A DNA stretch of 37,010 bases from Candidatus Omnitrophota bacterium. GTDB lineage: Bacteria; Omnitrophota; Gorgyraeia; B26-G9. A program made the position numbers and the translations under genes. The first letter of the stretch is position 1; the number at the start of each line of letters is the position of its first letter. Positions 16,928 through 21,081 of the stretch are shown piece by piece. The notes beneath the pieces are model-generated. The model saw nothing but the letters and a program-made list of their open reading frames with translations, made no database searches and was not told where the DNA came from. Location: assembly GCA_018817585.1 (NCBI GenBank), contig JAHITE010000105.1, positions 1-37,010 on the forward strand, given 5' to 3'.

Positions 16928-19276
16928 CTACTTTCTATTCTCAAGCAACTGCATTCTTTGCTTTGCTTTAAGCGTCCAAGGATCGTCTTCACGGCCTAAA
17001 TTTACACGCTGTTTCCAATGATAATATGCTTTTTTATAGTCGCCTGACTTCTCATATAAAAGAGCAAGATTACTATGCGCTTTAATATATTGAGGATCTA
17101 TTTTAAGAGTAGTGAGATACTCCATTTTAGCTTTATCTTCCAAACCTTTTTGTTCATATAAAATTCCCAAATCATTATGCACTGTCGCGTATTTTGGATC
17201 CTGCATCAGTGCTTGCTGATAATACTTCACAGCACTATCAAAATCTCCATTCCTTTGCATCTCAAGACCAGCATTTCTTAATTCAACCGCAGACTCGAGA
17301 ACCTCACCTCTTAAACCATTCTCAGGTTTAACTGCTTTTCTTTCTGGCATATTAACTTTTCGCCTGGTTGGCCTTGCTTCAGCGCGTTTAGATACAGCGC
17401 GTTTAGATTCTTCATTTTTGTGTTCCCCATCCAAAGCCTTTAAGGCAGCCATCTGTGCGTCTTCTTTGGCTTTTTCGGCTTCTAACTGCTTCAAAACTGA
17501 AGCACTGTAAAATTGTTCTTCTTCTTCCTTTTTCCGTTCCGCTTCTATTTTCTCCATTTTAGCTTGTTCAGCTAATCTTTTTCGCTCATCAGATTTTTTT
17601 TGCTCTTCTTCCATCTGCTCTAAAAACTGACTATCAATACTCTCCAATGATTTCCGATACTCTTGCTCTGTTTTTTCAAGTTCATACTGTTTTAAAGCTA
17701 ACTCTGCAGCTTCTAATTCTTTTTCCGCGGCTTCGAGCACAGATACTTTAGAATTTAAGAATTGTTCTTTTGCATTATAATCCTCTTGTGCTATAGCAAC
17801 GCTCTTATTCGGATTATTAGACTCAGCCAATAACTTGTCGTTTTCTCTTTTTAAATTGTTATATTCAAAAATCCTGGCATCGCTTTCTTTTTTTGCGATT
17901 CCCGCTGTTTTTATAACTTTTTCAAGATCAGATTTTTTTGCGTCATATTTTTTTTGAGCTTCATTTATCGTTTTTTCATCAGCACCTTTTTCCAAATACA
18001 AGCTTAACTTTTCTTTTGCATTTGAATATTCTAACCACACACTATTTGCCGCGCTTTTAGCAATTTGCATCTGTTCAAGTGATTTATCATACGCGTTTTT
18101 AGCTAATTCATTTTGAGCTTTAGCAAATTCAATACGCTCAGTCATAGTATCCGCGTCTTTCTGGGATTCTATTATCTGTGCCCCAGCAGCAACAACCTTT
18201 TCTTGAGCGATATCAATCATAGCTTTAGCAGCATCAACTTTTCTCTTCGCCTCTTCCACCCGCGCTAAAGGACTTACACTAAGTGTTTTGCTTTCAGTGC
18301 TTTTATTTACTCTTTTTTTACTACGCTCAAACTTTCTCCTTGGCTTTTTTACTTTTGGTTCACTTTTCTGCTTGCTTATCTGTTCGGATTTCTTTCTTCT
18401 ACTTAATTCTCTTTGCTTTACCGGTGCTGTTTCTACTTGTTTATCCTTTATTTCACCCTTTTTTTCTTTAAGCGCCTTTGCATCCTGCTTTTTTACTATT
18501 CTCTCTCTTTTTTTTGTTTCTTTTTCCTGCATCTGCGCTGGGGTATTATTTTTTGCTTTACCAAAACTAAAAAAAGACACTATAGAACTTTTAATTTTAT
18601 TAGGAAATTTTTCCTTCTGTTCAGACTTTTTAGCTGGTTTTACAGAAGGCTTTCTTTGACGAAAAGATGCTGCTTCACTTTGCTCTTTTGGCATGGCAAC
18701 ATTTTTTGGTGATAAATCAGACTGCTCATGTTCTTTTTCTTCCACTGCAACTGGATTTTTAGCATTTGCCTCTGTTTCCACAATTTCAGGTAACAAGATT
18801 TTATCAACCATAGCAATTTCTTTTTTTTCAACCACTGCTTTCGGAATAGCCATCCCCGGTTTTGATATCACTAAAACTGAATTTGTTAAACCTTGGGCAA
18901 AATCATATCTAACCGCTTCTTTAAGATCAATAATTATAAAATCCACAGAGTAATAAGACTCACCCAAATCTGGACTAACTTTGGTGCCTTTAATAACCCG
19001 CATTTGTTTAACAACCCCTTTATTAATAATCATAACTTCAGGTTGCTTAGAATAAACATCACCCATAAAATCTACCACTATTTGAGGTGGAACTGAAAGG
19101 TCATAACATTCTACCGCGACTGACCGATTTGTAGCATAAAGTATTTTAACCGCTGAATCATCTTCCTTTATTTCTGTTTCAGTTAAAACAACTGATTGGG
19201 CATAAAGCTGAACGCTCGAAAAAAACGTTAATCCAGCAATAAGAACCATCCTAAGCAACACAGTTTCTTTCCTCAT
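16928..19276 (-). CDS. Exported AMIN-domain, coiled-coil and TPR protein (782 aa)
   Basis: Signal peptide at residues 1-26 (ending 'LYAQ'). An AMIN-like β-domain spans ~30-140 ('[14 protein letters not shown]', '[20 protein letters not shown]'). A Lys/Glu/Gln-rich basic linker (~200-335) contains a lone hydrophobic motif 'FFSFG' (235-239). A long heptad-rich coiled coil covers ~340-625, and two to three TPRs lie at ~660-765 ('[20 protein letters not shown]', '[20 protein letters not shown]'). AMIN domains of AmiC and PilQ bind peptidoglycan, so a periplasmic scaffold anchored at the cell wall is plausible. It is paralogous in its N-terminal half to the next gene upstream. GGGAGGAG precedes ATG 19276. 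Confidence 0.85.
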
Positions 19277-19380
19277 TTATTCTCCTCCCAATATCATTTT
19301 ACATTTTAAAAATATCGATTGTTTTACTTTTAGAATTTTTAATACCAAACCAGACATACTAAAAACCCATTCACATAAAA

Positions 19381-21081
19381 CTATTGCTTTTGTAAATATG
19401 TTTCGATTTCGCGTTTAATTCTTTCGAATTCAGTTTTAGCATTTCTGTAGGAATATTCAGCTTTAAATTTTTCAGATACAGCTAAATCCAAATTTAATTT
19501 TATCTGTTCATATTTTTTGGAAAGATCTATAAGGACAGCATTCTTATCCAGCAGCAATTGCTTAAGCCTGGCCAATTCCGCTCCACTAAACTTGTTTTGA
19601 TTTTCAAAATTTTTCAAATCAGCAGTAATACGTGATTTAGCCTCAACAGCTTTATCCAGTTTTTGACGAAGCTCTTCAATTTCCCGACTAAGTTTTTCAA
19701 CAGTTAGCGTTATCGAATCCTTAATTTTTACAGTATTATCGTATTCGGTTTTTATATTCGCATATTCAGTTTCCATTGTATTAACATCATCTTCCAATTT
19801 TCTTTTTTCAAAACGCACAAGATCAAGTTTTCCGCTTGTTTTTTTAACTTCAGTATTCAAATTATCTACTGTCGCACTAACCCGATTAAGCTGCATCTGA
19901 AAATCTTCGTAATCCTTCTTTGCTTTTATATAGGCATTACGCTGAGCAATAAGATCATCAACTTTTTCCCCTAATGCTTGGCGTCTTTTAATCTCATCAT
20001 CCAGGGAATTTTTCAGCTGATCAAGTTTTGCCAAAATTTCATTAATTTTCTCATCCAACTCAGATTTTTGCCCCTTGGATAAGTATAAAGCTTCTTGCAG
20101 ATTTTTCAATTCCATGGTCAGATCTTCAATCCGATCAGATGTTTTTTGTTTTTCTCTTATAGTCTCATTAACAATGCTGTCAATTAAATAATTTTCTCGT
20201 TCAGCGGGAACTGGCATATTTGTTATTTTTCTTTCGATAGGCATTTTTTCTTCCAGCACGACTTCTTTAGGCTGTTCTGCAACTGATCTTCGGCCAAAAA
20301 ATAAAAAACCTCTATTGCCTTTTCTCTTTTTCGGTATTTGTTTTACACTTTTTTTTCGTTCTGCACTAATCTTTGCTCTTCTGACCTTAAGTTCTTTGGA
20401 TGTTTTTTTTGAGGCGGAAATCTCTGGCTGCTGAATTTGCTCTATTTCCCTAGAGGAATTTTCAATCTCTTTAGGGAAATCTTCATATTTAGCTTTATAA
20501 TTTATTGCGTCGTAGCTGTTATAATCATAACTGCTAACCTCTGGCTCTACAGTTTTCAGTTGCCTTGAAACAACTATTGGCGGAGTGAGTTCAACCGCAG
20601 TATCTGCGATATAAGGTTTTTCTACTTGTTCTACTTTCTTTACTGTTTCTCCTAGCTTAGATTCGCCAATACTCAAATCAATAACTGATTGGGATTGGTT
20701 AACTCTATAATCAGCTGCCCTAGTAAGATTTATCGCTAAAAAATCTAAAGAGTAATACGGTTCTCCATCAATAGAGATTTGGCTTTCTTCCCCTCTAACA
20801 AGACTTATTTTTTCAACCGCGCCTTGGCTGACATCAATTATTGAAGGCATCTTTGTATATACACTTCCAATAACATCTAAAACAATATAATTAGCAGGGC
20901 TCTCATCATTTTTGAATGTTTCTATTTGTAAAGTTTGGCTAGAAGTAATAGTAACTTTTACTGAAGAATCCTGTGTATCGATTACAATATCATTAATAAT
21001 TGCCGGCTGTGCTATTGCATTTGCAGAAACCGACATTATACCAACAAACAGAACCCAAAGTAATATTATTTTACTCTTCAT
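19381..21081 (-). CDS. Exported AMIN-domain coiled-coil protein (566 aa), paralogue of the following gene
   Basis: Signal peptide at ~1-24 ('NAIAQ'), AMIN-like domain at ~28-140 ('YIVLDVIGSVYTKMPSIIDV', 'GEPYYSLDFLAINLTRAADY'), and a basic linker (~205-285) with the motif 'FLFFG' at 259-263. A continuous coiled coil runs from ~300 to the C-terminus. It shares order and motifs with the 782-residue neighbour but has no TPRs. The frame also has an ATG at 21093, but no ribosome site precedes it, whereas ATG 21081 is preceded by a run of eight G. It follows serA by 32 bp. It is probably a periplasmic, cell-wall-associated structural protein; function unknown. Confidence 0.8.
   Translation of the reverse strand: MKSKIILLWVLFVGIMSVSANAIAQPAIINDIVIDTQDSSVKVTITSSQTLQIETFKNDESPANYIVLDVIGSVYTKMPSIIDVSQGAVEKISLVRGEESQISIDGEPYYSLDFLAINLTRAADYRVNQSQSVIDLSIGESKLGETVKKVEQVEKPYIADTAVELTPPIVVSRQLKTVEPEVSSYDYNSYDAINYKAKYEDFPKEIENSSREIEQIQQPEISASKKTSKELKVRRAKISAERKKSVKQIPKKRKGNRGFLFFGRRSVAEQPKEVVLEEKMPIERKITNMPVPAERENYLIDSIVNETIREKQKTSDRIEDLTMELKNLQEALYLSKGQKSELDEKINEILAKLDQLKNSLDDEIKRRQALGEKVDDLIAQRNAYIKAKKDYEDFQMQLNRVSATVDNLNTEVKKTSGKLDLVRFEKRKLEDDVNTMETEYANIKTEYDNTVKIKDSITLTVEKLSREIEELRQKLDKAVEAKSRITADLKNFENQNKFSGAELARLKQLLLDKNAVLIDLSKKYEQIKLNLDLAVSEKFKAEYSYRNAKTEFERIKREIETYLQKQ

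Follow-up and report, generated by a model that had tools for sequence, protein, structure and literature searches.

A tandem pair of AMIN-fold proteins with distinct linear motifs in one family of Omnitrophota

In a stretch of 37,010 nucleotides (the window) from Candidatus Omnitrophota bacterium (GCA_018817585.1, contig JAHITE010000105.1, positions 1-37,010 of the forward strand; genome G000), two neighbouring genes encode a 566-aa AMIN-coil protein, here called CCP, and a 782-aa AMIN-coil-tetratricopeptide repeat (TPR) protein, here called TPRP. The two are a real, lineage-specific and conserved pair of AMIN-fold proteins, putatively a scaffold, and their domain layout, predicted folds, disorder, orthology, linkage and motif conservation were established by computation. 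Reasoning by analogy with known systems, we regard it as an evenly balanced proposition that CCP and TPRP form a wall-anchored periplasmic scaffold of two exported paralogues that use linear motifs. Full-text searches, judged by titles and the openings of abstracts, listed no paper on such an AMIN pair. The two genes are:

19381..21081, minus strand: CCP, 566 aa, with AMIN fold, disordered basic linker, helical hairpin and no TPR (open reading frame, orthologues in 11 of 12 family genomes, model)
16928..19276, minus strand: TPRP, 782 aa, with AMIN fold, disordered basic linker, helical hairpin and TPRs (open reading frame, model, orthologues)

CCP was found in 11 of the 12 genomes of the window's family, the twelfth being 69% complete, and TPRP in the same eleven. 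The two genes lie next to each other on one contig in 10 of the 11 genomes, and in G011 both lie at contig ends. Across 384 genomes of the class, the coil of the CCP profile aligned in only 11, all among the 12 family members, and in eight further genomes the match covered the AMIN domain and reached no further than partway into the linker (profile position 254); these class scans scored the first three to four candidates per genome, so that a weak relative could escape.

Both open reading frames lie where an earlier sequence-only reading of this DNA had put them. Both proteins begin with a hydrophobic helix that ends, judged by eye, at a small-residue/A-Q site, in agreement with the signal peptides that this reading had assigned to them. 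The same reading had placed an AMIN domain in each, and the assignment held although Pfam was silent. The N-terminal features are:

21007..21081, minus strand: CCP signal peptide, about residues 1-25 (by eye; the model has a helix at 3-18)
20662..21003, minus strand: CCP AMIN-fold domain, residues 27-140 (VIA-align to AmiC 4bin, PilQ 3jc8 and PilQ 4aqz)
19196..19276, minus strand: TPRP signal peptide, about residues 1-27 (by eye; the model has a helix at 2-25)
18863..19192, minus strand: TPRP AMIN-fold domain, residues 29-138 (homologous to that of CCP at E 1.6e-16; modelled with ten strand elements)

A Pfam search with E up to 0.01 reported no AMIN domain in CCP or TPRP, PF11741 gave no match over its curated cut-off in the whole window genome, with both proteins below it, and Pfam and NCBIfam saw only the TPRs in TPRP and generic coil matches in CCP. 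The N-terminal domains of the pair match each other (E 1.6e-16) and also match Omnitrophota domains fused to TPR, TolC-type and polysaccharide-export proteins; one homologous domain, in L080, passes the PF11741 cut-off (21.9 versus 20.5 bits). AlphaFold2 models were built from 11-row alignments (CCP mean predicted local distance difference test score, pLDDT, 71.0 and predicted template modelling score, pTM, 0.35; TPRP 70.9 and 0.32). Residues 25-145 of the CCP model aligned with the AMIN domains of AmiC and PilQ at VIA-align Z scores of 11.2-13.5, namely with AmiC 4bin at Z 13.5 (root-mean-square deviation, rmsd, 2.3 over 103 residues) and with three PilQ entries at Z 11.2-12.9 (3jc8 12.9; 4aqz 11.9), the alignments with 4bin, 3jc8 and 4aqz spanning 100-107 residues, and Foldseek returned 3jc8, 4bin and 4aqz at probability 1.00. 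Because the structure matches support the fold while PF11741 stays below its cut-off, we use the wording AMIN fold: the N-terminal domain of CCP, as modelled, is an AMIN fold as opposed to a PF11741 match, and that of TPRP, whose list of structure matches was filled by TPR matches, is one by its homology to CCP. Pfam revealed no secretin or N0/N1 domain, amidase catalytic domain or LytM domain in either protein.

The strand GExYYSxDF, which had been singled out as shared by the two proteins, is present in both (GEPYYSLDF and GESYYSVDF), but YYxxDF is general to Omnitrophota AMIN domains and not specific to the pair. Among 26 aligned Omnitrophota AMIN rows, D112 and F113 are invariant and Y109 is kept in at least 90%; exceptions in another alignment are L099, which lacks YY, and L102, which reads DY. 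A tree of 33 AMIN domains, with unsettled bootstrap values and several long branches, recovered a CCP clade (99/100) and a TPRP clade (79/72), and set CCP, TPRP and other AMIN-TPR proteins apart from L102 and the AMIN domains fused to TolC-type or export proteins (95/92). In other Omnitrophota families, AMIN-like domains are fused in L078 (by Pfam) and L082 (by eye) to TolC-type proteins, and in L080 and L083 (by Pfam) and L079 (by eye) to SLBB proteins of polysaccharide export, which would be an unusual way of anchoring outer-membrane channels.

Behind the AMIN domain, both models contain a region of disorder or low confidence followed by long helices. In CCP, ten strand elements (27-140) and a low-confidence stretch (143-294) precede helices at 301-335, 343-464 and 472-565; in TPRP, ten strand elements (29-138) and disorder (145-333) precede helices at 336-430 and 434-602, which are followed by further disorder (597-657) and the TPRs (661-782). 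The long coils that had been read in both sequences are therefore hairpin helices in both models, and the C-terminal TPRs that had been ascribed to one protein only are a three-TPR clamp in TPRP, recognized by Pfam and by structure match:

19387..20181, minus strand: CCP helical region, residues 301-565, hairpin turn at about 465-471 (AlphaFold2; block pLDDT mostly 72-94, 57-65 at the turn)
17471..18271, minus strand: TPRP helical hairpin, residues 336-602, turn 431-433 (AlphaFold2; pLDDT 92-96 at 341-530, below 50 by 597)
17987..18061, minus strand: conserved tip of the TPRP hairpin, residues 406-430, ANxxWxxYxxxKxxL (peak of coil conservation)
16931..17296, minus strand: TPRP three-TPR module and capping helix, residues 661-782 (Pfam TPRs; OGT TPR 1w3b, Z 18.7 over 122 residues)

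The TPR module matched OGT and other TPR clamps at Z 16.8-18.7. Conservation along the coils, calculated with L064 and L072 left out (10 rows for TPRP, which had no L072 row, and 9 for CCP), peaked in TPRP at the hairpin tip (401-430), where A410, N411, W414, Y417, K421 and L424 are invariant and AN..W..Y is kept in all 11 sequences by alignment (a narrow pattern, A[AR]N..W, marks 7), and in CCP at the hairpin base (301-385 and 531-560). Because the constrained regions of the two hairpins do not coincide, each hairpin probably binds a partner of its own. An HlyD-type RLS motif was not seen at the TPRP tip by eye.

The linkers between the AMIN domains and the hairpins are Lys/Arg-rich in both proteins, as had been noted, with net charges of +25 and +7, and they carry three short motifs:

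20569..20595, minus strand: CCP linear motif VELTPPIVV, residues 163-171 (best-conserved linker window; 0 of 5,000 column shuffles)
20293..20307, minus strand: CCP hydrophobic island FLFFG, residues 259-263, preceded by a basic block (of 11 orthologues, 8 keep its character by eye and 6 by pattern)
18557..18583, minus strand: TPRP hydrophobic island IVSFFSFGK, residues 232-240, with FFSFG at 235-239 (best-conserved linker window)

The two islands lie where they had first been placed, at residues 235-239 of the 782-aa TPRP and 259-263 of the 566-aa CCP. The statement that each linker holds a single island applies to the window's TPRP but not to CCP, in which VELTPPIVV forms a second hydrophobic stretch, and the proposal that the islands are a matching FFxFG motif did not survive: a profile of the TPRP island scored at most 1.4 bits on the three CCPs tested (of 11). 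Since the CCP island fails this profile and keeps its character only, the supposed match is, as far as the sequences tell, two unlike short motifs, one of them well conserved; homology of the two islands was unsupported by the TPRP profile on those three CCPs.

Conservation of the TPRP island among orthologues, which had been expected, was borne out. The island is recognisable in 10 of 11 sequences as the best-conserved stretch of the linker, with the consensus GK-x-G-x-GIK-x-FFTFGK-x-KK; eight sequences read [FWL][FV][TSI]FG, two are degenerate (ILTPG, FFTRE) and G004 has none. Its window conservation was 2.37 against a median of 0.51 in 10 rows (linker conservation was calculated in both proteins with L064, from the window's genus, left out) and 2.10 in the 9 rows of the column-shuffle test (TPRP without L064 and L071, CCP without L064 and L072), a value attained in 37 of 5,000 shuffles. 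The island profile matched at E 3.1e-13 to 5.5e-8 in the 10 genomes from which it was built, and across the 12 family genomes TPRPs alone fell below E 0.04, the best other match standing at 0.047; the island as a tag common to other proteins was ruled out, there being no significant profile match elsewhere in the 12 genomes. A hydrophobic-moment signature of an amphipathic helix was present in 7 of the 10 island-bearing orthologues (p 0.004-0.030). The island alignments hold island-bearing sequences only (10 of 11 for TPRP, 8 of 11 for CCP), so that the moment and profile figures describe selected cases, and rows L066, L069 and L072 are cut by contig ends.

In CCP, the strongest sequence conservation of the linker falls on VELTPPIVV, directly after the AMIN domain, which is kept in 9 of 11 sequences by alignment (a narrow ELTPPI pattern marks 8 of 11; L074 reads VELEPPIVV). 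The CCP island takes the form of a K/R block, RG and then FLFFG, FFKTF, LFKVIF, ILGRLF and the like, and is missing in G003, G004 and G009. Its expected conservation was borne out only weakly: the hydrophobic and basic character is seen by eye in 8 of 11, but position-by-position conservation is not above chance. A basic-hydrophobic-basic pattern was found in 6 of 11 CCPs against 0.48 expected, and at two other settings in 7 against 1.31 and 5 against 0.65, the patterns having been chosen after the sequences were seen; by hydrophobic moment none of the eight CCP islands is amphipathic. NCBIfam gave nothing over cut-off on the islands of seven orthologous proteins, and one weak coil match (IcmG/DotF, 22.6 of 200 bits) starts inside the CCP island of L069. 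Both islands and ELTPPIVV lie within predicted disorder yet are conserved. Because the islands lie in predicted disorder, and would be free for a partner, it is possible that they are docking or membrane-touching sites, as first suggested; they are lost in some genomes and are therefore not essential everywhere. Joint loss is confined to one genome of 11 (G004), too few for statistics.

Two other explanations of the islands had to be weighed against these results. That they are chance hydrophobic runs in a low-complexity linker is highly improbable: shuffles of single sequences often equal the aromatic clustering (p 0.19 for the window's CCP, although 0.017 for its TPRP), some orthologues lack an island and the CCP island is not position-conserved, but the TPRP column shuffles, the conservation of the profile in 10 genomes and the pattern excess in CCP all argue the other way. 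Somewhat less remote, yet improbable, is the view that the islands are membrane tethers, basic-hydrophobic patches on an anionic membrane through which each protein ties wall to membrane alone, with no CCP-TPRP complex. The CCP pattern excess (6 of 11 against 0.48) and the helix signature in 7 of 10 TPRP islands suit such tethers. The TPRP island, however, has no clear excess of flanking basic residues over its basic linker (the same test at its three settings found 2 of 11 where 1.65 were expected, 6 where 3.33 were expected and 5 where 2.20 were expected, the last with P 0.034), its sequence conservation is more in keeping with a protein groove than with a lipid surface, and the tandem linkage is kept.

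From these results we infer export, wall binding, contact between CCP and TPRP, targets for the islands, a machine that the pair serves and a history of its genes. We suggest that both proteins are exported and that each AMIN-fold domain holds peptidoglycan, while a disordered, mostly basic tether of about 90-240 residues would let the rest of the molecule extend. Motifs in the tether (for CCP, ELTPPIVV and the basic-hydrophobic patch; for TPRP, FFTFG as a short amphipathic helix) could then dock on a protein groove or a membrane, and the rigid hairpins would give reach as well as dimer or partner contacts, mainly through the TPRP tip and the CCP base. The TPR clamp of TPRP may bind a conserved partner peptide, possibly a CCP motif, in the manner of the PflA post-AMIN loop around the TPRs of PflB.

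Of the two-part periplasmic filament or scaffold originally envisaged, the scaffold fits the AMIN fold, the tandem order in 10 of 11 genomes, the hairpins and the TPR clamp, but nothing shows a filament. Also in favour of the wall-anchored scaffold, the island profile is silent (at most 1.4 bits in five of five) on AMIN-TPR proteins of other families, which have no adjoining CCP; this counts as one event on the tree. Because the island is absent by profile from these five proteins, it probably arrived together with the hairpin and CCP in that one event. Several observations weigh against the scaffold. Both models were built on those 11 rows, with pTM of 0.35 and 0.32; the Foldseek E values for the CCP AMIN matches are just 0.004-0.009, none below 0.001; and many unrelated coils are among the CCP hairpin matches (Z 10-13.6). 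In L074 the CCP linker has a net charge of -6, column shuffles give the CCP island no positional conservation above chance, the amphipathic signal of the TPRP island falls short of significance in the window (p 0.21), likewise in L064 and L076, and islands are lost in 3 of 11 CCPs and 1 of 11 TPRPs, both in G004. The identified neighbours of the pair are housekeeping enzymes that give no hint of function. Last, the two AMIN domains, which had been taken as closest relatives, are paired by the best tree, but only at 45/41: a grouping of TPRP with the other-family AMIN-TPR proteins was not rejected (p 0.37), nor was one of CCP with the TolC/export-fused AMIN domains (p 0.37), and CCP with the other AMIN-TPR proteins was borderline (p 0.0515).

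The interest of the pair lies in its setting. In well-studied bacteria, AMIN-type domains place pili, and a role in anchoring flagellar stators has been proposed for them. An entire family of uncultured Omnitrophota here has an extra, lineage-made AMIN pair with its own linear motifs and a TPR type common to many families of the class, and exact residues can be offered in ELTPPIVV, FFTFG and the ANxxWxxY hairpin tip.

Among the closest known systems is PflA, with its partner PflB, of the Campylobacter flagellar motor. According to the passages available from its description, PflA is periplasmic, with an N-terminal AMIN-like domain, a flexible post-AMIN loop that wraps the PflB TPRs mainly by hydrophobic contacts, and TPRs following the loop (PMC11870540). 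MotK of Cereibacter sphaeroides is described, in the part of the source available, as a periplasmic AMIN-like and TPR-like protein and proposed wall anchor (PMC10954123). The combination of AMIN and TPR in one exported protein, as in PflA and MotK, recurs in TPRP (export judged by eye), while CCP is without TPRs. PflA differs in having 17 TPRs and serving a flagellum, which by FlhA is lacking in 10 of 12 family genomes, and MotK in being the flagellar stator partner of MotE; a long hairpin for PflA, and a hairpin or tandem AMIN paralogue for MotK, go unmentioned in those passages. It is scarcely credible that CCP and TPRP are flagellar scaffold proteins related to PflA/PflB or MotK. They share the architecture class, and PflA and its scaffold do appear low among the Foldseek matches of CCP (9leq_A, E 0.020; 9hmf_K, E 0.015), but no PflA entry is among the best 50 VIA matches listed for CCP, and 10 of the 12 family genomes, including the window's, lack FlhA (PF00771), while the pair is present in 11; with FlhA in only 2 of 12, a flagellar role was rejected for most of the family. 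The two FlhA-bearing genomes are G004 and G005, of which G004 is also the one without both islands.

CpoB (YbgF) provides a second comparison: the passages seen of PMC7391070 describe a coil and three TPRs in a regulator of wall synthesis. TPRP shares with it a layout of coil then three TPRs and a periplasmic location (export by eye). CpoB differs in being linked to tol-pal, 28 kDa in size and trimeric through its coil, with AMIN not mentioned in what was available of the source, whereas the neighbours of CCP and TPRP are serA and purA. We weighed division or wall synthesis as the function of the pair, as regulators like CpoB (coil and TPR) and EnvC (long hairpin coil) whose AMIN domains would bring them to the septum, and consider it rather unlikely. 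The AMIN, coil and three TPRs of TPRP, the last two elements as in CpoB (PMC7391070, in the part available), and CCP hairpin matches to EnvC 8tzl (Z 11.6, rmsd 2.4 over 162) and the RipA coil 6ewy (Z 13.4, rmsd 4.4 over 189) speak for it; such Z scores, however, are common for helical hairpins, and a Pfam scan of 21 of the window's 36 genes revealed no LytM, amidase or Tol-Pal gene.

The AMIN fold itself is shared with PilQ and AmiC, from which CCP and TPRP differ in having no secretin or amidase domain. PilQ AMIN domains bind the wall and are needed to place the pilus machine, according to the passages available of PMC5285504. Secretin machines are a candidate client. On this account, CCP and TPRP would be accessories of a type IV pilus or type II-like machine, a wall anchor in trans to secretins without AMIN, with a TPR like that of the PilW/Tgl/PilF pilotins. 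The best NCBIfam matches of the TPRP TPRs are PilW (42.1 bits) and Tgl (41.2 bits), but these fall far below the cut-offs of 154 and 225; no lipobox was seen by eye, and no linkage to any pil gene was seen. Secretin matches number 5-10 per family genome and 2-7 per genome among 46 other relatives, the family genomes being larger on the whole. Because secretins were found in all 58 relatives searched, pair or no pair, the co-occurrence with secretins that had been put forward as a test of the pair's role is uninformative. No AMIN domain was detected at any of the eight secretins of the window genome (searched with the mixed AMIN-TPR profile at E up to 0.01 and with PF11741 at E up to 1), but PF11741 misses CCP and TPRP too, so that a secretin AMIN could hide. 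In the window genome a secretin lies beside polA in a PilM-linked, type IV pilus-like cluster (L207:9655-17914) that precedes polA and runs T2SSE, T2SSF, PilM, a PilO-like protein (20.6 bits, cut-off 22), a small protein of no family, and the secretin; by Pfam the last has a weak N-terminal TPR-like stretch, an STN/N0-type domain, Secretin_N and secretin domains and no AMIN, and its nearest NCBIfam model is Amuc_1098 (205 of 750 bits). An Omnitrophota genome paper mentions Tad and type IV pili, and none of its passages seen concerned AMIN domains (PMC10066038). We judge a secretin accessory role unlikely, although the pilotin-like TPR matches, the 5-10 secretin matches per genome and the absence of a detected AMIN in the window-genome secretins weakly favour a secretin client among the named options. 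A more specific version, which we hold to be distinctly unlikely, is that the family's secretins lost or never had AMIN and that the tandem AMIN pair, one member with a pilotin-like TPR clamp, docks through its tether motifs as one shared wall-bound scaffold for the many secretin machines of a cell. If the pair did anchor secretins in trans, wall anchoring could be uncoupled from the machine.

The genes flanking the pair are:

21114..22697, minus strand: serA, upstream neighbour of CCP (Pfam; adjoins CCP in 10 of 11)
15649..16992, minus strand: purA, downstream neighbour of TPRP, likely ATG start at about 16923 (Pfam; adjoins TPRP in 10 of 11)

In the window, the order on the minus strand is serA-CCP-TPRP-purA; CCP comes after serA, and TPRP before purA, in 10 of 11 genomes each, the exceptions being contig ends. 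Because the gaps are only about 32 bases (serA to CCP), 104 bases (CCP to TPRP) and about 4 bases (TPRP to the likely purA start), the spacing suits a single transcript; a promoter and terminator scan stayed at chance level (29 versus 28.6 and 6 versus 5.7) and added no information.

Short AMIN-TPR genes occur at five loci of four other families (L077, L081, L089, L099 and L101), four of them beside purA (L077 is cut there by the contig end) and four following an HMGL-type synthase gene that itself comes after serA. Their products resemble TPRP in locus and in AMIN and TPR types, but differ in being 309-452 aa long (L077 cut by the contig end), too short for the hairpin, with no profile island and no adjoining CCP; among the class-scan matches listed, full-length AMIN-TPR proteins belong to the same four families, and G081 has two copies. 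By synteny TPRP is likely the orthologue of these genes, and because the four families carry a short AMIN-TPR gene at the same locus CCP is probably the added copy, a lineage-specific duplicate, of which the tree alone is no proof. Of the 20 loci L084-L103, all picked because they contain a TPR of the same type or an AMIN match, 14 (L085-L088, L090-L093, L095-L098, L100 and L103) carry such a TPR protein immediately ahead of polA. In seven of seven genomes examined from AMIN-TPR families, the stretch by polA showed no TPR of this type; in the three of these that belong to the window's family, the gene by polA is a secretin gene. Because the TPR protein lies by polA elsewhere and was not found there in AMIN-TPR families, the AMIN-TPR gene may be a relocated, AMIN-fused form of a widespread exported TPR protein. 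We suggest that a secreted TPR protein, present in many families of the class, acquired an AMIN domain in a few of them, that tether and hairpin were gained in the window's family, and that a tandem duplication then gave the TPR-less CCP.

The polA-adjoining TPR proteins end in a sequence like HWxxRxxLGxxxDPWT (by eye). At L084:6783-8027, a fusion joins the widespread TPR with a polysaccharide-export-like domain (by eye), beside a Wzz/GNVR gene. An open frame of 18,022 codons with TPR-like matches lies near 94419 of G041:C51, in another family of the class. Within the window, three consecutive PilZ-like proteins, two with Pfam PilZ matches and the third in the same cluster, are encoded at 27029-28539, adjoining an RmuC gene.

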